Origin: Paenarthrobacter sp. A20
GTDB taxonomy: Bacteria > Actinomycetota > Actinomycetes > Actinomycetales > Micrococcaceae
NCBI RefSeq assembly: GCF_024168825.1
Contig: NZ_JALJWH010000001.1
Span: forward strand, 1,488,001-1,552,000
DNA: 64,000 nt
Reading direction: 5' to 3'
Shown: positions 1,956-51,367 of the stretch, one piece after another
Layout of the letters: every line of letters starts with the position of its first letter
How positions within the stretch are numbered: position 1 is the stretch's first letter
The notes under the pieces: model-generated
What the model saw: the letters and a program-made list of their open reading frames with translations, nothing else
Told to the model about the DNA's origin: nothing
Databases searched by the model: none
Position numbers and translations under genes: made by a program

Positions 1956-2897
1956 ATGATCAAGTTCATTGCGAAAAGACTGGGCAGTGGTCTGGTGGTG
2001 TTGTTCGTAGTCTCGGTCCTCACCTTCACCCTGCTGTACACCTCCAGCGGAAGTATCGCCCAGAACATCCTGGGCGATCAGGCAACACCGGAACAGGTTG
2101 CCTTGAAGGAACAGGAACTGGGACTCGATCAACCGCTCTTTGTCCGTTACTTCGCCTGGTTGGGCGATGCGCTCACAGGCAACCTTGGAGCTTCCTGGTT
2201 CACCTCGGAGCCGGTGGCCAACTCCCTGGCCACCCGTATCCCGGTCACCATGACCATGGTTTTCACCGCAATGATCCTGATCGCCATCTGTGCAGCACTG
2301 ATCGGTGTTGCCGCAGCCGTGAAGCGCGGCTGGGTGGACAGGGTGGTCCAGATTGGCGCGATCGTTGGGGACTCCATTCCCGGGTATGTGATTGGCGTGT
2401 TCCTGGTAACCATCCTGGCCATCCAGCTGGGCTTCTTCCCCGCCACCAGCACCATCTCTCCGGAGGTGGGGCCGGAGGCCTGGGTCTACTCCATGACCCT
2501 CCCGGTGATCGCTTTGCTGATCAACGGCGTGACTGGCGGCGCACAGCAGATCCGCTCCGCAGTCATCAAACAGCTTGAGCGTGACTACGTCCGGACGTTG
2601 CGCAGCCGCGGCATTGGAGAGCGAGAAATCCTCTTCAAGCACGTGCTCCGCAGCGCGGCACCTGCAGGCTTGACGGTGTTGAGCCTGCAACTGATCGGCA
2701 TGCTGGGCGGCGTAGTGATCATCGAGCAGATCTTCGCCCTCCCGGGCATGGGTCCGCTGGCTGTTGCCGCTACCACCCAAACCGATCTTCCCGTGGTCAT
2801 GGGAGTGGTGATGTACACCGTGGTGGTGGTCATCGTCGTGAACCTCCTGGTGGACATCCTCAATGGTTGGCTCAACCCGAAAGTGCGTGTCTCATGA
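1956..2897 (+). CDS. ABC transporter permease, DppB/OppB type
   Basis: A 313-residue inner-membrane permease with about six transmembrane helices and the BPD_transp_1 fold. The N-terminal segment after the first helix carries the DppB-like extracellular loop. The EAA-type cytoplasmic loop, which docks the ATPase, is seen as RDYVRTLRSRGIGEREILFK around residues 208-227. It pairs with the permease half of the next gene. Its stop codon overlaps the next start as ATGA, which indicates translational coupling. Confidence 0.9.
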   Translation: MIKFIAKRLGSGLVVLFVVSVLTFTLLYTSSGSIAQNILGDQATPEQVALKEQELGLDQPLFVRYFAWLGDALTGNLGASWFTSEPVANSLATRIPVTMTMVFTAMILIAICAALIGVAAAVKRGWVDRVVQIGAIVGDSIPGYVIGVFLVTILAIQLGFFPATSTISPEVGPEAWVYSMTLPVIALLINGVTGGAQQIRSAVIKQLERDYVRTLRSRGIGEREILFKHVLRSAAPAGLTVLSLQLIGMLGGVVIIEQIFALPGMGPLAVAATTQTDLPVVMGVVMYTVVVVIVVNLLVDILNGWLNPKVRVS

Positions 2898-4774
2898 GCG
2901 ACTCCGTAGATTCAACAGCAGCAACAGCTGCAGTCACCGGCCTTGCGGCCAAGACAGGCCAGAGCGGCACGGTGGTCCGTTCCACCGTGATGCGCCGTCT
3001 CCTGAAGAACCCCATGGGCATCGCCTCGCTGGTGATCCTGCTGACGATCGCTGCGCTGGCCATCCTGGCGCCGGTGATCGCGCCTTTCGAAGAGAACTTC
3101 GCCAACATTTCCAAGACCCTGGCCGCCCCGGATTCAGTGAACATCCTGGGCACGGACAGTGCAGGACGCGACACCTGGAGCCGCCTGCTCTTCGGTGCGC
3201 AGCTGACGTTGTTGTCTGCGCTGCTGTGTGCCGGTGTGGCGATCGCCATCGGACTCCCGGCGGGCCTGATCGCCGGCTACTACGCAGGCAAATTCGAGGC
3301 CGTTTCCAACTGGGTAGTCAGCATCCTCATGAGCCTGCCCGGCCTGATCGTCCTGCTCACCATCCGCGCAGCCTTCGGACCGTCGGTATGGATTTCCATG
3401 ATCGCCTTTGGTGTCCTGATCAGCCCGTCGTATTTCCGGTTGACCCGGACCGCAGTCCAGTCGGTCCGGAACGAGCTCTACGTCGACGCTGCCCGGGTTT
3501 CCGGTCTTTCGGACCTGAGCATCATTGCCCGCCACATCTTCTCCGTGGTCCGCGCACCCATCATCATCCAAACCGCCGCCATCGCCGGGGTTGCCATCGC
3601 CATCCAGTCCGGACTCGAATTCCTGGGCCTGGGCGATCCCACCAAAGCCACCTGGGGCGTCATGCTCTCGGAAGGCTTCAAGAACGTCTACCTCACCCCG
3701 ATTCTGCTGCTCTGGCCGGCACTGGCCATGGCCCTGACCATCGGCGGACTGGTCCTTCTGGGCAACGCCATCCGCGACGCCCTGGAAGACGGCGAAAAGA
3801 TCAAGCACCGCAAGAAGCGGGCGGTTGCCTCTGTTGCAAGCACGACGCCGGACCCCGCCACGGCGGGCCAGTCACGGAAGTCCGTGGCCGCCGTCGACGT
3901 CGGAACCGAGCACCACCTGGTCAAGGTGACCAACCTCGGCGTCGGCTATCCGCAGGCTGACGGTTCCATCAAAAAGGTAGTGGACGATGTTTCCTTCCAC
4001 GTGGACCGCGGCGAGATCCTGGGAATCGTTGGTGAATCGGGCTCGGGCAAGTCCCAGACCGCGTTCTCCATCCTGGGCCTGCTGCCGGACAACGCCCGGA
4101 TTGTGGGCGGCTCCATCCAGTTCGACGGCAGCTACACGGTGGCCCCCGGCGATGACCGCGTCAACCAGGAACGGCTGTCCAAACTGCGCGGCAAGCGGAT
4201 CTCCTACATTCCGCAGGAGCCCATGAGCAACCTGGACCCGGCGTTCACCATCGGCTACCAGCTGGTGACGCCCATGGTCCGTGTCCTGGGAATCTCCAAG
4301 GCAGAAGCCCGCCAGCGTGCGCTCAAGCTGCTCACCGACGTCGGCATTGCCAACCCGGAACGCACCTTCGAGGCGTACCCGCACGAGGTCTCCGGTGGCA
4401 TGGCCCAGCGCGTGCTGATTGCCGGTGCCATCAGCTGCGAACCGGACCTGGTGATCGCTGACGAACCCACCACCGCACTCGATGTCACCGTGCAGGCAGA
4501 TGTGTTGGACCTGCTCCGCGAACTGCAGCAACGGCTGAACATCGGCGTGATCCTGGTGACCCACAACTTCGGAGTTGTTGCCGACCTCTGCGACCGCGTG
4601 GCCGTGATGCAGAACGGGCGGCTCGTGGAAGAAGGCACGGTCCGGGACATTCTCCGGAACCCGAAAGAGCCGTACACGCAGACCCTGCTGGGGTCCATGC
4701 TCGAAGGAAAGACCCCCATGACCATGCTTGTGTCACAGCCTGGATCAGCAGCACAGAAGGAGCCTGTCGCATGA
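2894..4774 (+). CDS. ABC transporter permease fused to ATP-binding protein (DppC-DppD type)
   Basis: A 626-residue protein joining two importer subunits. Residues 1-300 are a DppC-like permease: an N-terminal OppC segment, about six helices, and the coupling loop with AARVSGLSD. A basic/alanine-rich linker follows. From about residue 340 there is a complete ABC ATPase with Walker A GESGSGKS near residue 380, signature VSGGMAQRV near 500 and Walker B LVIADEPTTALD near 518, ending in the oligopeptide-transporter C-terminal extension. The ATG at 2894 was chosen because it overlaps the previous stop and yields a normal DppC start; an upstream in-frame ATG at 2867 lies inside the previous gene. 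Such fusions are known in actinobacteria. Confidence 0.9.
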   Translation: MSDSVDSTAATAAVTGLAAKTGQSGTVVRSTVMRRLLKNPMGIASLVILLTIAALAILAPVIAPFEENFANISKTLAAPDSVNILGTDSAGRDTWSRLLFGAQLTLLSALLCAGVAIAIGLPAGLIAGYYAGKFEAVSNWVVSILMSLPGLIVLLTIRAAFGPSVWISMIAFGVLISPSYFRLTRTAVQSVRNELYVDAARVSGLSDLSIIARHIFSVVRAPIIIQTAAIAGVAIAIQSGLEFLGLGDPTKATWGVMLSEGFKNVYLTPILLLWPALAMALTIGGLVLLGNAIRDALEDGEKIKHRKKRAVASVASTTPDPATAGQSRKSVAAVDVGTEHHLVKVTNLGVGYPQADGSIKKVVDDVSFHVDRGEILGIVGESGSGKSQTAFSILGLLPDNARIVGGSIQFDGSYTVAPGDDRVNQERLSKLRGKRISYIPQEPMSNLDPAFTIGYQLVTPMVRVLGISKAEARQRALKLLTDVGIANPERTFEAYPHEVSGGMAQRVLIAGAISCEPDLVIADEPTTALDVTVQADVLDLLRELQQRLNIGVILVTHNFGVVADLCDRVAVMQNGRLVEEGTVRDILRNPKEPYTQTLLGSMLEGKTPMTMLVSQPGSAAQKEPVA

Positions 4775-5646
4775 GTGCCGCAGACAAGTCCCCGCTCCTC
4801 TCAGTGGAGAACCTGGTAGTGGAGTACCCCAGCAAGCGGTTCCGGGCCAAGCCCTTCCGAGCGTTGACGGACATCAACATCACCATCGGCCAGGGCGAAA
4901 CCCTCGGGCTGGTAGGGGAGTCCGGTTCGGGCAAGACCACCCTTGGCCGCGCCGTCCTGGGCCTGGCCCCGGTCACCGCCGGAAAGGTGATCTTCGAGGG
5001 CAACGACATCAGCAACGCGTCGCGCAAAGAACGCCGCACGCTCAGCCGGGACCTGCAAGTGGTGTTCCAGGACCCTTACACCTCGCTCAACCCGGCGCTG
5101 GAAATCGGCGACATCCTGGCTGAACCGTTGGGGGTGCAGGGCATGGAACCCGCCGCAGCGAAGAAGCGTGTCAAGGAACTCCTGGACCAGGTGGGCCTGC
5201 CCACCGACGCCATCCACCGGCTGCCACGCGAGTTCAGCGGTGGCCAGCGCCAACGCGTTGCGATCGCCCGGGCACTTGCCCTGTCCCCAAAACTGATTGT
5301 CTGCGATGAGCCCGTGAGCGCACTGGACCTCTCCACCCAGGCCCGGGTTCTGGACCTCTTCCTGCAAATCCAGAAGGACACCGGCGTTTCCTACCTGTTC
5401 GTCTCGCACGACCTCGACGTCGTGCGGCACATCAGCCACCGTGTGGCCGTCATGTACCACGGCGAAATTGTGGAACAAGGCCCCGCGGAGATCGTCACCC
5501 GCGATCCCGAACACCCCTACACGCAGCGGCTTTTGCTCGCATCGCCCGTGCCCGATCCGGACCGGCAGGAACAACGCCGGGCAGACCGGCACCGGCTGAT
5601 GGCCACCCAACGTAACCAGATTGAACAAGCGGGTGCCGTGGCCTGA
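4771..5646 (+). CDS. ABC transporter ATP-binding protein, DppF/OppF type
   Basis: A 291-residue ATPase, the second nucleotide-binding subunit of the importer. Walker A GESGSGKT lies near residue 50, the Q-loop in VVFQDPYTSLNP, the signature FSGGQRQRVAIA near residue 155, and Walker B LIVCDEPVSALD near 176, followed by the H-loop in SHDLD. It forms a heterodimer with the ATPase half of the fused protein upstream. Its start overlaps the upstream stop as ATGA. It is the last gene of the importer operon proper, although the enzymes that follow may be cotranscribed. Confidence 0.92.
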   Translation: MSAADKSPLLSVENLVVEYPSKRFRAKPFRALTDINITIGQGETLGLVGESGSGKTTLGRAVLGLAPVTAGKVIFEGNDISNASRKERRTLSRDLQVVFQDPYTSLNPALEIGDILAEPLGVQGMEPAAAKKRVKELLDQVGLPTDAIHRLPREFSGGQRQRVAIARALALSPKLIVCDEPVSALDLSTQARVLDLFLQIQKDTGVSYLFVSHDLDVVRHISHRVAVMYHGEIVEQGPAEIVTRDPEHPYTQRLLLASPVPDPDRQEQRRADRHRLMATQRNQIEQAGAVA

Positions 5647-5712
5647 TAGCCGGCGGCACCCAGCAGAACCCACGCGGCCCCTTAACTGTGGCCGGAAATT
5701 TTGGAGGAAAAA

Positions 5713-6573
5713 GTGGCCACAATAGGCGTACAGGCGATGATGTTGAAGGACAGCTTCGCCGAAGTTGGAGCGTTTGAGACCCTGCGGAAAGTGAACGCAA
5801 TCGGGTACAACGCGGTGGAGATCTCCCAGATCCCCATGACACCGGAAAATGTTGACGAGTTGGACCGCTCACGCTCGGAGCTGGGCATGGATATTGCTGC
5901 CCTCTCCGTGAATGTGGAAGGCCGCAAGGGCATGCCCGTCGAGTCCCTTGCGGACAACTTCGACAAGATTGTGGATGACGCGAAGCGCCTGGACACATCG
6001 CTGCTGCGGATTGGCATGCTGCCGTTCGGGGCCATGAAGTCCCTGGAGGCCGTGGTTGACTTCGCCAAGCAGGCAAACGGTTATGCCGAGCGGCTCCAGG
6101 AGCAGGGCATCAGTCTCTACTATCACAACCACCACATCGAGTTTGCGAAGTTCGACGGCAAATACATGCTGGACATCATCGCGGAAAACTCTCCGGCCAT
6201 GGGCATGGAAATCGACGTGCACTGGGTTCAGCGCGGCGGCCTGGACCCGGTCCGGACACTTGAAAAGTACTCGGGACGCACAGCAATGGTCCACCTGAAG
6301 GATTACAGGATCGGGCAAATGCCGGAATCGTCCTTCGGCCTCCTGGAAAAGGGCGACTTCCCCGGCTTCATGGCCGAGTTCAAGAACGTGGTGCAGTTCG
6401 CTGAGGTGGGCGAGGGAAACCTGGATTTCCCGTCAATCGTGCCCGCAGCGGTGGCCGCCGGCGCCCAGTACCTCTTGGTGGAGCAGGACGAACTGTACGG
6501 CCGCACTGTATGGGATGCCCTCCAGACCTCGTACGACAACCTGGTGGCCATGGGCCACGCCGACCTTTTCTAG
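5713..6573 (+). CDS. Sugar phosphate isomerase/epimerase family protein (TIM barrel)
   Basis: A 286-residue AP-endonuclease-2/xylose-isomerase-like TIM barrel. Probable metal-binding residues sit in YYHNHHIEF, EIDVHW and VHLKDY, in the order expected for the family (including IolE/IolI-like enzymes and ketose epimerases). The GTG at 5713 is preferred because GGAGG lies 5 bases before it; an in-frame TTG at 5701 precedes this ribosome site. It is followed by an oxidoreductase gene, a pairing common in inositol and oxidised-sugar pathways. The exact substrate is not determined. Confidence 0.8.
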   Translation: MATIGVQAMMLKDSFAEVGAFETLRKVNAIGYNAVEISQIPMTPENVDELDRSRSELGMDIAALSVNVEGRKGMPVESLADNFDKIVDDAKRLDTSLLRIGMLPFGAMKSLEAVVDFAKQANGYAERLQEQGISLYYHNHHIEFAKFDGKYMLDIIAENSPAMGMEIDVHWVQRGGLDPVRTLEKYSGRTAMVHLKDYRIGQMPESSFGLLEKGDFPGFMAEFKNVVQFAEVGEGNLDFPSIVPAAVAAGAQYLLVEQDELYGRTVWDALQTSYDNLVAMGHADLF

Positions 6574-6599
6574 ATTATTCACCACAGGAGAATGCATTC

Positions 6600-7766
6600 A
6601 TGAGCAAGAAAGTACGCCTCGGCATCATCGGCCTGGGCCAGCAGGGTGGCGCCTACGCCAGGTTCATCAAGGACGGCACCGTCACCAACATGGAGATCGG
6701 CGCCATCTGCGACATCGATCCCGCCAAGAAGGAACTGGCAGCATCCCAGTATCCGGGCGTTCCGTTCTACGACGACTACCTGGCGATGCTTGAAAGCGGC
6801 TCCGTGGACGCAATTGTCACCTGCGTCCCCCATTTCCTGCATCCCGAGATGGGCATTGAATCGCTCAAGCGCAACATCCACGCGCTGGTGGAGAAGCCTG
6901 CCGGGGTGTACACCAAGCAGGTCAAGGAACTGAACGAGTTCGCTGCATCCAAGCCGGAGCTTTCCTTCGGCATCATGTTCAACCAGCGCAACAACCCGCT
7001 GTACAAGAGGCTCAAGGAAATCGTTGATAACGGCGAGATCGGCAGTATCCGGCGCACCAACTGGATCATCACCAACTGGTGGCGACCGCAGGGCTATTAC
7101 AACTCCAGTGAGTGGCGCGCAACGTGGGGCGGCGAAGGCGGCGGAGTCCTGGTCAACCAGGCACCGCACCAGCTGGACCTCTGGCAGTGGATCTGCGGCG
7201 TCCCCAAGTCCGTGTACTCCAAGGTGGCGTACGGTTTCCGCCGCGACATCGCCGTCGAGGATGAGGTCACCGCAGTAGTTGATTATGGCGACGGCGCCAC
7301 AGGCGTTTTCGTGACAGCCACCCACGACATCGTGGGAACCGACCGCTTCGAAATCCTGGGCGACCAAGGCAAGATCGTGGTGGAAGACAGCAAGGTTGCC
7401 ACGGTAACGCGCCTGGTCAAGCCGGAACGCGAACTCAGCGATTCCATGGACATGGACGATGTCCGGAAGCTCTTCATGGGCCAGCTGAACCGCGACGAGT
7501 TCTACACCACCGAGGTCATCGAGTTCGAGTCCGTGTGGGGCGGCCAGCACGCAGGTGTCCTGGAGAACTTTGCCGCCAACATCCTGGACGGCACGCCGCT
7601 GCTCGCTCCGGGATCCGACGGCATCAACGGTGTCCGCCTTGCCAACGCGATCCACCTCTCCAGCTGGACGGGCAAGGAAGTCTCCCTGGACTTCGACGAG
7701 GACGAATTCCTGCAGGAACTGAACAAGCGCATCGCCGAAGAGGGCAAGTTCCCCGAGCGCTCCTGA
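6600..7766 (+). CDS. Gfo/Idh/MocA-family oxidoreductase
   Basis: A 388-residue NAD(P)-dependent dehydrogenase. The N-terminal Rossmann fold shows GIIGLGQQGGAYA, the middle carries the family signature VEKPAGV, and the C-terminal domain has the PHQLDLWQW segment that holds the active-site histidine. AGGAG lies 8 bases before the ATG. It probably acts with the TIM-barrel protein upstream, for example in epimerising or oxidising a sugar acid or inositol. A strong terminator follows, so it likely ends the importer transcription unit. Confidence 0.85.
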   Translation: MSKKVRLGIIGLGQQGGAYARFIKDGTVTNMEIGAICDIDPAKKELAASQYPGVPFYDDYLAMLESGSVDAIVTCVPHFLHPEMGIESLKRNIHALVEKPAGVYTKQVKELNEFAASKPELSFGIMFNQRNNPLYKRLKEIVDNGEIGSIRRTNWIITNWWRPQGYYNSSEWRATWGGEGGGVLVNQAPHQLDLWQWICGVPKSVYSKVAYGFRRDIAVEDEVTAVVDYGDGATGVFVTATHDIVGTDRFEILGDQGKIVVEDSKVATVTRLVKPERELSDSMDMDDVRKLFMGQLNRDEFYTTEVIEFESVWGGQHAGVLENFAANILDGTPLLAPGSDGINGVRLANAIHLSSWTGKEVSLDFDEDEFLQELNKRIAEEGKFPERS

Positions 7767-35315: not shown

Positions 35316-35933
35316 ATGGTTGCACATGAAGTAGCTTCACCGGAAACAAGGCAGCGTCACAGCAAGGCACCCAAGGTCCGCGCTTTCCTGGCCGGTGGGC
35401 TGGTACTCGGAGTAGGCGCTGCGATTACCTTGGCAGCGTGGAACGACTCCGAATTTGCCCAAGGCACCTTCACCGCTGGTTCGTTCAACCTTGAGGGCAG
35501 CACGGACGGCACGGCGTTCGGAGAGAACCCGGTTGCGACACCGGCAACGCTTGGCTTCACTGCCACGCCGTCCAACCTTTCACCGGGGGACGTGGTCACG
35601 GCGCCCTTCGCGGTCAGGCTGGATGATGCCACCACCAACGACGCCACCGTCACCGTCTCAACTGAAGCATCAACGGGTGCACTGACCGGTCTCACGTACT
35701 CCCTCACGCAATCGACGGATTTTGGGTGCGCCGAACCAGTGGACACCACGTTGGTGGCAGCCGGACAAGTACTGGGGACGACGCCGGGCAGTGTCACCTT
35801 TGCGCTGACGCAGGGAGCGGGCACCAATCCGGGCGATGCAGTGAACCTGTGCTTCCGGATCACGGCCGACGATGACCTCGTCCAGTCCCAAACCGGGACC
35901 ACCACCTGGGAATTCGCCGCGCAATCGCAGTGA
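35316..35933 (+). CDS. Secreted protein with SipW-type signal sequence (1)
   Basis: A 205-residue exported protein. The N-terminus has a long basic region, then a hydrophobic helix FLAGGLVLGVGAAITLAAW and the after-cleavage pattern NDSEFAQGTFTAGSF, the hallmark of TasA/CalY-type substrates of SipW signal peptidases. The rest is a beta-rich domain with two cysteines. A GGGGGAA ribosome site precedes the ATG. It opens a five-gene unit with a second substrate, a SipW peptidase, an LAXTG protein and a third substrate. Confidence 0.8.
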   Translation: MVAHEVASPETRQRHSKAPKVRAFLAGGLVLGVGAAITLAAWNDSEFAQGTFTAGSFNLEGSTDGTAFGENPVATPATLGFTATPSNLSPGDVVTAPFAVRLDDATTNDATVTVSTEASTGALTGLTYSLTQSTDFGCAEPVDTTLVAAGQVLGTTPGSVTFALTQGAGTNPGDAVNLCFRITADDDLVQSQTGTTTWEFAAQSQ

Positions 35934-35936
35934 TCC

Positions 35937-36596
35937 ATGGGTCGTCGACAAGCCAAGACCAAGCACGGTGCGGTTGCCCTGCGCATCCGTGCGATCCTCG
36001 CCGGGGCGTTGGTGCTGGGGCTCGGCAGCTCAGTGACCCTGGCGTCCTGGACTGACAGCGACTTTGCCGGTGGCTCCTTCGGGGCGAGCGTTTTCCAAAC
36101 GGAATCCAATGTCACCAAGCCGTACAGCGCCGCAGGCGCATGGAATACCAATGACGTGTCTCCGGGCGGCACGCTGGTGTTCGCCGCTACTGCGATGAGC
36201 CCTGGCACTGTGGCCTATGCACCGTTCGCCATCCGGACCAAAGCCACCTCGGTAGCCGGCGAGGTGGTCCTCGGGGTTCCGGTGGTGACCAGCAGCGGTA
36301 CCGGAAACGCGGACCTGGGGGCGGCGCTCAGATACCGCGTGGTCCGGTCGGCCACCTGCGACGCGTCGTCGTTTACCGGGACGCCAACGTTCGTGGTGGG
36401 CAGCGACGGAGCCAAACCGTTCACGCAAGGGCAGGCGGCCGGCGTCGTAAATCCCCTGGCCGCCGCAACAGCGACGCTTCCCGGGGCTCCGACGCAGTTC
36501 TGCTTCGAGGTCACCCTTCCCCTTGGCGCAAACAATGCCCTGCAAGGCCAGACCGCCACCGCAACCTGGCAATTTACTGCCACCTCAAGCTCATGA
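35937..36596 (+). CDS. Secreted protein with SipW-type signal sequence (2)
   Basis: A 219-residue paralogue-like partner of the first gene. After a basic head it shows ILAGALVLGLGSSVTLASW then TDSDFAGGSFGASVF, again the SipW-dependent pattern. The mature domain is Thr/Ala/Val-rich with two cysteines, probably an immunoglobulin-like beta fold. It starts 3 bases after the previous stop and overlaps the peptidase start as ATGA, which ties substrate and peptidase production together. Confidence 0.8.
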   Translation: MGRRQAKTKHGAVALRIRAILAGALVLGLGSSVTLASWTDSDFAGGSFGASVFQTESNVTKPYSAAGAWNTNDVSPGGTLVFAATAMSPGTVAYAPFAIRTKATSVAGEVVLGVPVVTSSGTGNADLGAALRYRVVRSATCDASSFTGTPTFVVGSDGAKPFTQGQAAGVVNPLAAATATLPGAPTQFCFEVTLPLGANNALQGQTATATWQFTATSSS

Positions 36597-37117
36597 GCCG
36601 CCGCCCGTTCCGCAGCCGGCTGCGGGAAGTCCTGTTGAACATCGCGGCCGCAGGCGGGGCTGTGTGCATCCTTGCGGTGATCTGCGCACTGCTGTTCAAC
36701 ATCACGCTGATCATGTTCAAGACGGGGTCGATGTCGCCCGGTATCCCGGCGGGTTCGCTCGCCGTGGTCCGTGAAATCCCTGCCAGCGGGATCAACGCAG
36801 GCGACGTCGTGACCGTGGACAGGCCGGGGAAGCTGCCCATCACGCACAGGGTCCAAACAGTGGAGCCTGCGGACGGATCTGCGCGAACCATCACCATGAA
36901 GGGTGATGCCAACACCGAAGCGGATCCGGCACCCTATGTGGTGGAGAAGGTCCGGCTGGTCCTCTGGTCCGTGCCGGGGCTCGCCCAGCCACTGTCCGCG
37001 GCCGCCAATCCGGTGGTTCTTGGCGCCACAACTATTGCTGTCTCCGGGCTGGTGACCTGGGTCCTGTGGCCAAGGAATCCGAGCCGGCGCAGGAGCGGGC
37101 AGCATGTGGCGGCGTAG
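36593..37117 (+). CDS. sipW: SipW-type signal peptidase I
   Basis: A 174-residue membrane-bound signal peptidase. An N-terminal transmembrane helix precedes the catalytic segment TGSMSPG (Ser46), and the second catalytic box has His (ITHRV, His85) where bacterial-type enzymes have Lys. This Ser-His pair defines the ER/SipW-type group. A C-terminal helix follows. Such enzymes process TasA-like fibre or surface proteins, and two such substrates lie directly upstream and one downstream. Confidence 0.9.
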   Translation: MSRRPFRSRLREVLLNIAAAGGAVCILAVICALLFNITLIMFKTGSMSPGIPAGSLAVVREIPASGINAGDVVTVDRPGKLPITHRVQTVEPADGSARTITMKGDANTEADPAPYVVEKVRLVLWSVPGLAQPLSAAANPVVLGATTIAVSGLVTWVLWPRNPSRRRSGQHVAA

Positions 37118-37766
37118 TGGGTTGTGGACGGCAGCCGTTGCGGCAGTGCTGCTGCTGGGTGCCGCACCCGCGGTTGCCGCCGATGGGGAGGCTTCGGGTT
37201 GGTTGGAGCTCGACGCCGGTCCAGCCGGCCAAGTGCATCGGCTCACCCCGGGCGGCAGTGCGGATTGGGCGGTGGATGTCCATGTTCGCGGCGAACCTGC
37301 CACATCCCTCGACGTCGGGCTGCAATCCGAGCCGGCGTCAACGGAGGTGCTGCGGGATTTCCTGAGCGTGGAGCTCAAGGCTTGCTCGCAACCCTGGGAG
37401 GGAAGCTCCTGCGCGGAGGGCCAGCGTGTCTTGTTGGGACGGACATCGCTGGACACTGCCGGGGGTGTGCAGGTGGACCTCATGGAACCCGGCAGTGCCG
37501 AATCGACCAACGCCTACGTCCTCCTGACAGCAACGTTGGCCGAGGACGTGCCCCGTGAGGTGCAGGGGAGCCGTACGCAGATCGTGGTGGGCGTCCACGG
37601 GTCAGGGGACGACACGGGTGGGCCGGGCTTCCCCGGAAACCCGGCCGGGCCGTCGTCGGGAATCCTGGCAGACACCGGTTTTCGCCTGGGAGGGTTTGCG
37701 CTCCTCGGTTTCGGGGCGGTCGCGGCAGGGTTTGGACTGGCCCGTTTGCGGGGTGCTGCCGGGTGA
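37104..37766 (+). CDS. Surface protein with LAXTG-type sorting signal
   Basis: A 220-residue protein with a classical signal peptide cleaved after A-V-A-A near residue 26, a beta-rich domain, a Gly/Pro-rich linker and a C-terminus reading LADTG (residue 188), a hydrophobic helix and a final arginine pair region. LAXTG is the motif used by class E sortases of actinobacteria, so the protein is probably linked to the cell wall. It overlaps the SipW gene by 14 bases and the next gene as GTGA, so it belongs to the same operon. No sortase gene is in the window. Confidence 0.75.
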   Translation: MWRRSGLWTAAVAAVLLLGAAPAVAADGEASGWLELDAGPAGQVHRLTPGGSADWAVDVHVRGEPATSLDVGLQSEPASTEVLRDFLSVELKACSQPWEGSSCAEGQRVLLGRTSLDTAGGVQVDLMEPGSAESTNAYVLLTATLAEDVPREVQGSRTQIVVGVHGSGDDTGGPGFPGNPAGPSSGILADTGFRLGGFALLGFGAVAAGFGLARLRGAAG

Positions 37767-38293
37767 ATATGTTCAAGCGGGCGCGGGTTGGACTGACGGT
37801 GGCGTTGCCCCTCGCCGTCGTGCTTTCCGCGGTGAACCCACCGGCCGTCACGGAAGCGGCATGGCAACGCGATCAGTACTCGGCAGGGAGCTTCGGCACG
37901 GTGACCATCCCGGCTCCAACACTCAACGGTCCATGTGTGTACAACAACGGGATCGCCGGTCTGGGCGCCTATGTGCGGGTGTACTGGAAACCACCAGCAG
38001 GCTACGCACTGGCGGATGCAGAAATGCAGGCTTCCACCAGTGGCCTGGGGTCCCTTCTGGCGCCACTGACCGGCTACTCGTTGGCTGGGAACACTACCGG
38101 AACAGCGGCAGGCGGATACACCACGGACGTTGCCACCAATTTGTTGGGCGGTCTGCTGGGCCTTGGCACGGAACTCCAACTCGCCATTGTGGTGAAGCGG
38201 TACGGGTGGACCTCCCAGCCGGCCTCAGTGGCCACGAATGCGGGACTCATCCTTGGACTGGGCGGCAACTGCCGGAACCTGCCGGCCGCTTAG
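37763..38293 (+). CDS. Secreted protein with SipW-type signal sequence (3), divergent
   Basis: A 176-residue exported protein. The signal VGLTVALPLAVVLSAV is followed by EAAWQRDQYSAGSFGTVTI, a shortened version of the SipW-dependent pattern. The mature domain has two cysteines near its ends (GPCVYNN and GGNCRN) that may pair, and Gly/Leu-rich stretches. It overlaps the LAXTG gene as GTGA and is the last gene of the operon. An ATG at 37769 is an alternative start. I do not recognise the domain. Confidence 0.7.
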   Translation: MNMFKRARVGLTVALPLAVVLSAVNPPAVTEAAWQRDQYSAGSFGTVTIPAPTLNGPCVYNNGIAGLGAYVRVYWKPPAGYALADAEMQASTSGLGSLLAPLTGYSLAGNTTGTAAGGYTTDVATNLLGGLLGLGTELQLAIVVKRYGWTSQPASVATNAGLILGLGGNCRNLPAA

Positions 38294-38528: not shown

Positions 38529-39818
38529 ATGCCCGCTATCGTGATCGTCGGAGCCCAGTGGGGCGACGAAGGCAAAGGCAAAGCAACCGATCTGCTCGGT
38601 GGCCGCGTTGACTACGTGGTCAAGCCCAATGGCGGTAACAACGCCGGGCACACCGTGGTTGTTGGCGGTGAGAAGTATGAGCTGAAGCTCCTTCCCGCGG
38701 GCATCCTGAGCCCCAACGCAATTCCTATTATTGGCAACGGCTGCGTGGTGAACCTCGAGGCCCTGTTCCAGGAAATCGATGGCCTCGAAGCCCGTGGCGC
38801 GGATACTTCCCGCCTGCGCGTCTCGGCCAACGCCCACCTGGTTGCCCCGTACCACCAGGTGCTGGACAAGGTCACCGAGCGCTTCCTCGGCAGCCGCGCC
38901 ATTGGCACCACCGGCCGCGGCATCGGTCCGGCCTACATGGACAAGGTGGCCCGCCTCGGCATCCGCGTCCAGGACGTCTTTGACGAGTCCATCCTCCGCC
39001 AGAAGGTGGAAGGTTCGCTGCGCCAGAAGAACGAACTCCTGGTCAAGGTGTACAACCGCCGCGACATCATTGCTGACGAGATCGTGGAGTACTTCCTGTC
39101 CTTCGCCGAGCGCCTGCGCCCGTTGGTCATCGACAGCACCCTCGAGCTCAACAACGCACTGGATGAGGGCAAGGTCGTCCTCATGGAAGGTGGCCAGGCC
39201 ACGTTCCTGGACGTCGACCACGGCACCTACCCGTTCGTCACCTCGTCCAACCCGACTGCAGGCGGCGCCTCCGTTGGTTCGGGCATTGGCCCTACCCGCA
39301 TCTCGCGCTCCATCGGCATCATCAAGGCGTACACCACGCGTGTTGGCGCCGGACCGTTCCCCACGGAACTGTTCGATGAGATGGGTGTTTACCTGCAGAA
39401 GACCGGTGGCGAGTTCGGTGTGAACACCGGCCGTCCCCGCCGCTGCGGTTGGTACGACGCCGTCCTGGCACGCCACGCTTCCCGCGTCAACGGCTTCACG
39501 GACTACTTCGTCACCAAGCTGGACGTCCTCACGGGCATCGAGCAGATCCCTGTCTGCGTCGCCTACGACGTCGACGGTGTCCGCCACGACGAGATGCCCA
39601 TGACGCAGACCGAGTTCCACCACGCTGTCCCGATCTTCGAGTACTTCGACGGTTGGACCGAAGACATCACCGGTGCGCGCACCCTGGAGGACCTCCCGGA
39701 GAACGCCCGCAACTACGTGCTGGCCCTCGAAAAGCTCTCCGGAACGCGCTTCTCGGCCATCGGCGTCGGCCCGGACCGCGACCAGACCATCGTTGTTCAC
39801 GACCTGATCAACGACTAA
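38529..39818 (+). CDS. purA: Adenylosuccinate synthase
   Basis: A 429-residue enzyme that joins IMP and aspartate using GTP, the first step from IMP to AMP. It begins with the P-loop [12 protein letters not shown], then [42 protein letters not shown] and [19 protein letters not shown] lies just upstream of the ATG. The 235-base gap before it holds a small hairpin, TGACACC/GGTGTCA at 38354-38376, but no recognisable riboswitch. Confidence 0.96.
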
Positions 39819-50167: not shown

Positions 50168-51367
50168 TCAAGCGGTTTTGGGTGTTGGGGGTTGGTAGAG
50201 GGTGCCGTCGCGGAGCATGGCGTAGAGGGTGTCGCAGCGTCGTCGTGCGAGGGCGATGAGTGCTTGGTTGTGGCGTTTTCCTTCGGCTCGTTTGCGTTCG
50301 TAGTATGCCCGGGACGGTGGGTCGTGGAGCGCAGCGAATGCGGAGAGGAACAGGGTTCGTTTGAGGACTTTGTTGCCTTTTCTTGAGGAATGGTCGCCGC
50401 GGATGGAGGACCCGGATCGCCAGGTGACGGGGGCCAGCCCGGCGTAAGAGGCCAGGTGCCCGGCGGTGGGGAACTCTTTCCCGGCGACTTCGGTGAGGAT
50501 TCGTGCGGCGGTCCTGATGCCCACGGCCGGCAGAGACATCAGGACCGGGTGAAGAGGGTGGGCCTCCACGAGAGCTTCGACCTGGGTGAGGACCGTGGCG
50601 CGGCTTTCGTGGAGCCCGGCGAGCATGGCCGCGAGCTGGGGCAGCACGATGGTCGCGGCGTTCGTTCCTACGACAGTGACTGTTTGCCGGCCCAAGGCCT
50701 CGATGATGTCATCGGCAAGACGTTCACCCATCCGCGGCGCGAGTTTGCTCAGCCGGGTCCCGATCCGGCGCCGGCCCGCGTGACGGAGCGCTTCAGGGGT
50801 AGGCCAGGTCCGCAGCAGGTCATGCACCGCCGGGTGGTCCATGTAGGGTCCCAGCACCCTTTCCAGAGCTGGGTGGATCTGGGTGAGCAGCCCACGGATC
50901 CGGTTCGAAGTCGCCGTGGCCTGCTTGGCCAGATCCTCGTCGAACCCGCAAAGCATGCTCAGCTCAGCGAGCTGCTCATCGACCAACTGAACCGAGCGCA
51001 GGGCATGCGGCATGGTCCTGGCGGCCTCGGCGATGATGAACGCGTCCCGGGCATCGGTCTTCGCCTCTCCGGGGTGAAGATCCGCGATCCGGCGCATCGC
51101 CAGCCCCGGCAGGTAGCCGACCAGCACCCCGGCGGCCTGGGCAACCGCTACCGGCAACGCGCCGATAGTCGCTGGCTGGTCAACGACCAGCAACACACGT
51201 CCGGCGTCCACAAGTTCGGCGATGATTTCCCGGATTTTGGCTTCATCGTTGGGCAGCGCCCGGTCCAGTAATTTCCTGCCGGCCCGATCCACGGCAACGG
51301 CATGATGGACGCCCTTGCCAACATCCAGCCCAATAAACACCTCGACACCGTCGTGGTTCGTGATCAT
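50168..51367 (-). CDS. IS110-family transposase
   Basis: A 399-residue DEDD recombinase. The N-terminal RuvC-like domain starts with FIGLDVGKGVHHAVAVD, giving the first acidic residue, and further acidic residues follow in KTDARDAFIIAE. The C-terminal Transposase_20 domain shows SLPAVGIRTAARILTE, FPTAGHLASYAGLAPVTWRSG and NKVLKRTLFLSAFAAL, including the catalytic serine region. The ATG at 51367 has GGAGG 6 bases before it. The gene appears intact, so the element may be active. Confidence 0.93.
   Translation of the reverse strand: MITNHDGVEVFIGLDVGKGVHHAVAVDRAGRKLLDRALPNDEAKIREIIAELVDAGRVLLVVDQPATIGALPVAVAQAAGVLVGYLPGLAMRRIADLHPGEAKTDARDAFIIAEAARTMPHALRSVQLVDEQLAELSMLCGFDEDLAKQATATSNRIRGLLTQIHPALERVLGPYMDHPAVHDLLRTWPTPEALRHAGRRRIGTRLSKLAPRMGERLADDIIEALGRQTVTVVGTNAATIVLPQLAAMLAGLHESRATVLTQVEALVEAHPLHPVLMSLPAVGIRTAARILTEVAGKEFPTAGHLASYAGLAPVTWRSGSSIRGDHSSRKGNKVLKRTLFLSAFAALHDPPSRAYYERKRAEGKRHNQALIALARRRCDTLYAMLRDGTLYQPPTPKTA

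Follow-up and report, generated by a model that had tools for sequence, protein, structure and literature searches.

The DNA analysed here is a 64,000-nucleotide (nt) stretch of the genome of Paenarthrobacter sp. A20 (contig NZ_JALJWH010000001.1, positions 1,488,001 to 1,552,000), referred to below as the window, and our analysis centres on a five-gene operon at 35316..38293 of its forward strand. The operon encodes, in this order, two paralogous proteins with SipW-type signals (S1 and S2), a SipW signal peptidase, a protein with an LADTG sorting motif (the LADTG protein, or anchor) and a third SipW-type substrate (S3). S1, S2 and S3 are probably secreted fibre subunits of the TasA type that are cut by SipW, and we lean towards a donor-strand surface fibre, non-covalent in itself, whose base would be the LADTG protein, linked covalently to the cell wall. 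The original prediction for this operon had proposed that a TasA-like surface fibre or coat is tied to the wall through a class E sortase; to it we add that the anchor has a TasA-like predicted fold, appears to lack a SipW-type donor segment and often shares a reading frame with SipW in related loci. There is no settled view of how donor-strand fibres of Gram-positive bacteria are held on the cell: TapA and CapP serve as initiators or chaperones, and the reports on them differ in how they describe their attachment to it (PMC13082335, PMC9674648, PMC10151520). In this regard, the operon offers a covalent answer, which can be tested in a soil genus.

The SipW peptidase and its substrates

The five genes all lie on the forward strand and follow one another at +3, -4, -14 and -4 nt, so the coordinates agree with the 3-base gap and overlaps first noted for them, and such short gaps and overlaps suggest translational coupling across the operon. 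The third gene (36593..37117) codes for an archaeal/endoplasmic reticulum-type signal peptidase of 174 amino acids (aa) and, as had been predicted, it is a SipW, since it passes the TIGR02228 model (56.7 bits; cut-off 51.85). Residues S46 (codon 36728..36730, in an invariant GSM motif), H85 (codon 36845..36847, in an invariant THR motif) and D105 are identical in all eight aligned rows, that of the window included, and they are the proposed catalytic residues, as in the SipW family. The Bacillus SipW equivalog model NF046067 was not reached by this protein (36.8 of 190 bits).

S1 (35316..35933, 205 aa) and S2 (35937..36596, 219 aa) are paralogues (34% identity, E 1e-23), and both exceed the 19-bit cut-off of TIGR04088, the NCBIfam model of the SipW-type signal, with 34.9 and 28.0 bits, respectively. 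S3 (37763..38293, 176 aa, GTG start) matched no NCBIfam model at E<=1, TIGR04088 included, and its SipW-type signal was recognised by profile-profile comparison only, in which its N-terminus aligned with that of S1 at a probability of 95.5%. With S1 and S2 identified by the model and S3 by its profile, the three SipW substrates first read from the sequence are all retained. The second predicted mature position is tryptophan in every row of the S1 alignment (W42, 50/50; the window protein and 49 of the 120 listed homologues, out of 1,351 found) and of the S3 alignment (W34, 40/40; the window protein and 39 of the 120 listed homologues, out of 157 found), and direct reading of S2 places a tryptophan at the same position of the same SipW-type motif. 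E. coli LepB reportedly cleaves poorly when this position is aromatic, and TasA, which has an aromatic residue there, is reported to be cut by SipW (PMC10269814).

The segments that follow the predicted SipW cut are candidate donor strands. In S1 this segment comprises residues 41-57 (35436..35486), whose mean top-residue fraction is 0.87 compared to 0.67 for residues 76-205 over the 50 rows, and the AlphaFold model of the S1 monomer has a predicted local distance difference test score (pLDDT) below 50 at residues 1-46 and 48-53. The corresponding segment of S2, residues 37-53 (36045..36095), was assigned from the motif by direct reading, and that of S3 covers residues 33-48 (37859..37906), where W34 is invariant and G42 is found in 38 of the 40 rows. 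For comparison, the donor strand of TasA is described as its first mature residues, 28-38 (PMC9674648). Additionally, C58 and C170 of S3 are, like W34, present in 40/40 rows. Pfam searches with S3 gave weak, scattered matches only (best E 0.014) and no sensible family; its core looks FN3-like by eye, an observation that was not used as evidence.

A secreted protease was considered for S1 and S2, since 27 of the 50 S1-family rows weakly match PF12389 (best E 0.007), which Pfam names Camelysin metallo-endopeptidase. The HExxH motif is found in 0/50 of these rows, which makes a camelysin-type protease very improbable, and on this ground the protease reading was rejected.

The LADTG protein, predicted folds and the proposed fibre

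The fourth gene (37104..37766) encodes a 220-aa protein with an ordinary Sec signal (37104..37178), read from the sequence to end after residue 25 in an AxA-type site, and TIGR04088 does not match it. Because of this ordinary signal, the LADTG protein is probably not a SipW substrate and would be cut by the general signal peptidase instead. Its sorting motif (residues 188-192; 37665..37679) is conserved across 36 aligned rows, which are the window protein and 35 of 57 other homologues from a search that scored only the best candidates: L188 in 36/36, A189 in 33/36, T191 in 35/36 and G192 in 36/36. A hydrophobic stretch and a basic tail follow (37680..37763), and the predicted model has a helix at residues 189-218. 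The protein therefore has the features of a class E sortase substrate, namely LAXTG, hydrophobic stretch and basic tail, and class E sortases are reported to use LAXTG (PMC5148588). Pfam searches with it gave scattered weak matches only (best E 0.0064) and no sensible family.

The original prediction had called the fourth product both LAXTG-bearing and a sortase-type protein; the first description holds, and the second has to be changed to sortase substrate, as the sortases are encoded elsewhere. The host genome (G000; 5.38 Mb, 3 contigs) gave two sortase matches as a whole, neither of them within the window. One is a class E sortase at C1:940824 (NF033747, 248.9 bits; cut-off 160), whose neighbours we presume to be protein kinases and a penicillin-binding protein. 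The other is a class C sortase (260.6 bits; cut-off 160), and its presence could favour a covalent Spa-type pilus, in which the subunits are polymerised by sortase. Direct reading found no sorting signal in S1, S2 or S3, both sortase genes lie away from the operon, and the class C gene adjoins a SpaH-type major pilin gene of its own, so that a Spa-type pilus is hardly credible here; it was rejected because the cluster has no class C sortase and the shaft subunits have no sorting signals. The Spa-type pilus set of this genome occupies C1:806382-811687 (2383-7688 of locus L053) and codes for an 888-aa isopeptide-domain protein, the SpaH-type major pilin and the class C sortase.

Bacillus TasA is the best PDB match of the AlphaFold models of both S1, where unrelated folds score equally, and the LADTG protein, where the match is clearer. 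Profile comparison also relates the two. When hhalign was run with wide alignments from related loci (153 rows of S1/S2 type and 48 anchor rows, the latter chosen by their sorting signal under a relaxed motif), 111 columns aligned in order with P 4e-4. The controls gave P 0.53 for the reversed anchor, 0.10 for the best of 100 column shuffles, which is a mild control, 0.06 for the S3 core and 0.09 for SipW. The aligned region begins at an L-S/T-P-G motif common to both families and, on direct reading, the LADTG protein has about a dozen residues, without a SipW-type motif, between its signal and its first strand. The LADTG protein would thus seem to be related to S1 and S2 but to lack their N-terminal donor segment. 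Sequence-profile searches of the PDB were uninformative (best E 1.2 for S1 and 2 for S3; none for the LADTG protein).

We propose that S1, S2 and S3 are exported through Sec and cut by the dedicated SipW, and that this cut would free an N-terminal segment to be inserted into the groove of a neighbouring subunit. From the profile alignment, the conservation of the donor segments and the absence of a SipW-type motif in the anchor, we infer that S1 and S2 would both donate and accept, and so form the fibre shaft; S3, which has a donor segment and no detectable TasA-like core, would donate but probably not accept, and would start the fibre or form its tip; and the LADTG protein, with a TasA-like core and no SipW-type donor segment, would accept only and cap the fibre at its cell end. 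Attachment of the LADTG protein to peptidoglycan would fall to the class E sortase, whose gene lies outside the window. The resulting order, S3 - S1/S2 - LADTG protein, is tentative.

Polarity could also be reversed, with the LADTG protein nucleating the fibre at the wall through a self-complemented core or a short N-terminal strand and S3 added last as a terminal adhesin. In the mature N-terminus of the anchor, residues 32-36 do form a strand of its own, with each position conserved in 33-35 of 35 rows, and TapA has been proposed to donate the first strand (PMC9674648, PMC10151520). However, the anchor, with its ordinary signal, does not have the SipW-type N-terminus that TapA reportedly shares with TasA, and we regard the reversed order as unlikely.

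Recurrence and SipW-anchor fusions

A scan with the SipW profile, taking one genome per species, found 249 relatives, and the best 80 of these 249 were examined as loci. They include near-duplicates (L090 and L091 from one strain; L105 and L106 from one species) and two loci of one genome (L068 and L120), and four of them have under 1 kb of downstream DNA. S1-type genes lie upstream of SipW in 79 loci, with two or more in 72, and S3 lies at most 3 kb downstream of SipW in 63. A strict sorting signal was found in 43/80 loci, and S1, S3 and the signal occur together in 41. Furthermore, 46 of the 288 stop-to-stop frames that end 400-1000 nt past SipW carry an LxxTG signal (45/80 loci, under a looser tail rule), compared to 38 of the 11,532 other frames of the same loci, a contrast and not a formal probability because the loci are related to each other. 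The co-occurrence survey, proposed together with the original prediction, therefore recovers S1, S3 and an LxxTG protein in the slot in 79, 63 and 45 of the 80 SipW loci, respectively. The distance from SipW to S3 is bimodal: 12 loci have 43-251 nt, and the other 51 fall at 675-887 nt, 43 of them with a sorting signal under the relaxed motif. Related SipW loci are found in Micrococcaceae, Microbacteriaceae, Brevibacterium, Brachybacterium, Nakamurella, Rhodococcus and others. Among 149 genomes sampled evenly across the order, SipW (E <= 1e-8) is present in 74 and S1 in 26, always beside SipW (26/26, coordinates compared by eye); S3 is present in eight, beside SipW in seven and about 12 kb away in one (G181).

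In 30/80 loci the SipW frame extends at least 150 aa further, and 29 of these 30 extended frames enter the anchor slot, where the relaxed motif recognises a sorting signal in 23 and the strict motif in 21; some of the remainder are cut off by a contig end or carry a longer tail. Fused frames occur, among others, in Leucobacter, Mycetocola, Plantibacter and some Arthrobacter. In L067 there is no anchor gene and the SipW frame continues into S3, as is also seen in a genome of the same genus (G023). When the fused or separate state was placed on a rapidly built SipW-domain tree of 80 rows, 10 parsimony changes resulted, at least two of them forced by well-supported branches. Proteins that are repeatedly fused usually act together. 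The SipW-anchor fusions are an unusual protein design; cutting would be needed to free the pieces of the fused form and, if the proposed mechanism is true, the fusion delivers the enzyme that frees the donor strand together with the base that receives it. In Zimmermannella faecalis (L082, about 4900-6690) a single stop-free frame holds SipW, an anchor with an internal LPATG and an S3-like part, the last with a SipW-type signal and a weak match to the S3 profile (E 0.0021), and could possibly encode a polyprotein. A triple fusion is not claimed for L115, whose long frame holds an unknown base.

Several results weigh against a wall-rooted TasA-like fibre. At E<=1, S1 and S2 match no Pfam family, PF12389 included, nor the NCBI TasA model NF046066, and the LADTG protein matches no NCBIfam model, those for LPXTG anchors included. 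In the fold comparison run on S1, TasA heads the PDB entries, level with unrelated beta-sandwiches (7.9 and below); Foldseek gave no match at E <= 0.001 for either the S1 or the LADTG model, and TasA is absent among the 50 matches listed for S1. With narrow alignments, hhalign gave a probability of 0.3% for S1 and the LADTG protein, and even the wide alignments reached just 34.8%. The donor segment of S3, with the exception of W34 and G42, is less conserved than the rest of the protein (0.52 vs 0.71). Finally, the anchor is absent from some forms of the system, because the slot after SipW holds no protein with a strict LxxTG signal in 35/80 loci, 12 of the 63 S3-bearing loci leave no room for an anchor gene, and both S3 and a sorting signal are missing from the eight Rhodococcus and Rhodococcoides loci (in L099, the downstream DNA amounts to just 600 nt). 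The wall-tied TasA-like fibre that was first proposed is thus supported in part: the genome has the class E sortase, and TasA is the best match of S1, although unrelated folds score equally.

Some of these points would also fit a TasA-like coat or display without true fibres, in which S1-S3 would be released or held loosely at the surface, and the LADTG protein would be an independent wall protein with some of them, or a ligand, as binding partner. The weak sequence similarity to TasA and the 12 loci without room for an anchor speak for such a coat. Against it stand the donor-like N-terminus with its invariant tryptophan in the S1 and S3 rows, TasA as the best fold match of both S1 and the LADTG protein, and the encoding of SipW and anchor in one frame in 29/80 loci, and we consider it somewhat unlikely. 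The donor-strand fibre with an anchored base thus remains the interpretation that we favour.

Relation to known systems and cassette variation

Streptomyces chaplins are not TasA-like, and we know of no sortase anchoring in the bundling pili of Pyrobaculum. The latter (7ueg) are also archaeal, and the chaplins ChpA-C resemble the LADTG protein in combining an LAXTG signal with a class E sortase (PMC5148588). The tapA-sipW-tasA operon of B. subtilis is alike in having a dedicated SipW beside its substrates, a TasA-like predicted fold and an accessory subunit (PMC9674648). Compared to it, the Paenarthrobacter operon has two shaft paralogues, S3 in the stead of TapA, and a protein of TasA-like predicted fold that combines a sortase motif with an ordinary Sec signal and often shares the SipW frame; S1 and S2 also fall short of the TasA and camelysin models. 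The TasA-CalY-CapP system of Bacillus cereus is similar in its two TasA-type subunits and a third, SipW-processed assembly organiser, whereas it is described as sortase-independent, and CapP is said to hold the wall through its C-domain, the accessible text mentioning no LPXTG-type signal (PMC13082335). In Clostridium perfringens, sipW-bsaA(B,C) likewise forms a SipW operon with matrix subunits and an adjoining sortase gene; there, the polymer reportedly does not require srtB, and an LPXTG-like motif is absent from BsaA (PMC7395162), whereas here the anchor lies inside the operon and the sortase elsewhere.

Fibre systems of this kind are already known from TasA, CalY, CapP and BsaA, and what appears to be new is the probable wall-anchor form in Actinobacteria. 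The novelty of this layout is suggested by the closest reports, which describe the assembly as sortase-independent (PMC13082335) or the sortase as dispensable (PMC7395162), and by the open-licence literature, where no actinobacterial SipW fibre system or operon of this layout was met among the titles and abstract openings listed, in line with the statement first made about this set. These data could point to a so far undescribed class of actinobacterial filament, although we put this forward with some doubt, in which SipW/TasA-like donor-strand polymerisation is combined with a sortase-anchored, acceptor-only base, enzyme and base form one polypeptide in several lineages, and the last gene supplies an exchangeable tip. 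If true, TasA-like matrix fibres would extend to a large actinobacterial group, and a function would be provided for families named 'SipW-dependent-type signal peptide-containing protein', 'cell wall protein' and 'hypothetical protein'.

The nearest named relatives of the operon proteins belong to Paenarthrobacter and Arthrobacter. Among 37 genomes sampled from the genus, that of the window included, a close SipW (E < 1e-60) is present in five, and three more have a SipW at 39-43% (E 1e-33 to 1e-37). The next gene 3' of the operon begins at 38529 and resembles purA. At this same place beside purA, two of the latter three genomes, G033 and G008, have a different four-gene cassette (L046 3899-7809; L047 4532-8323) that comprises a substrate, SipW, an anchor-like protein and a last protein of 575-583 aa; that of G033 (575 aa, L046) belongs to the choice-of-anchor G family, scoring 150.4 bits against the NCBI model (cut-off 45). 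The five-gene set of G005 and G012 sits elsewhere, between genes that we take to be hpt and ftsH, and the anchor of G012, missed by the gene finder, is present in another frame with LSDTG. As one place holds different cassettes and one cassette is found in different places, the five-gene set gives the impression of an accessory cassette open to exchange, with the last gene as its most variable part. If the proposed mechanism is true, variant cassettes swap the tip for a choice-of-anchor G protein, and another starts with an RCC1-like protein. A further SipW cassette of G005 (L048 6753-12487) includes an LPHTG protein, and upstream of its SipW gene lies the gene of a 576-aa RCC1-like protein.

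The host genome carries a second SipW gene at C1:657421-658987 (L051 7422-8988), accompanied by a substrate of 201 aa whose camelysin Pfam score lies above the cut-off (40.2 bits vs 22.5). At C1:1967k (L052 6262-6867) there is a substrate with the same length, first 50 residues and SipW-signal score as the 201-aa one, adjoined by a 155-aa protein that is S3-like by eye.

As to the gene calls, a promoter/terminator scan found no promoter upstream of S1, and the two overlapping terminator-like sites found there were not above shuffled sequence. A codon-based gene finder trained on the window called all five operon genes, with scores that are low compared to those of the neighbouring housekeeping genes, and for S3 it favoured the GTG at 37799 as start, not the GTG at 37763. 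Lastly, a 399-aa gene at 50168-51367 of the window, presumably an IS110-like transposase, has a second copy of equal length and translated start in the same genome (L053 11953-13152).

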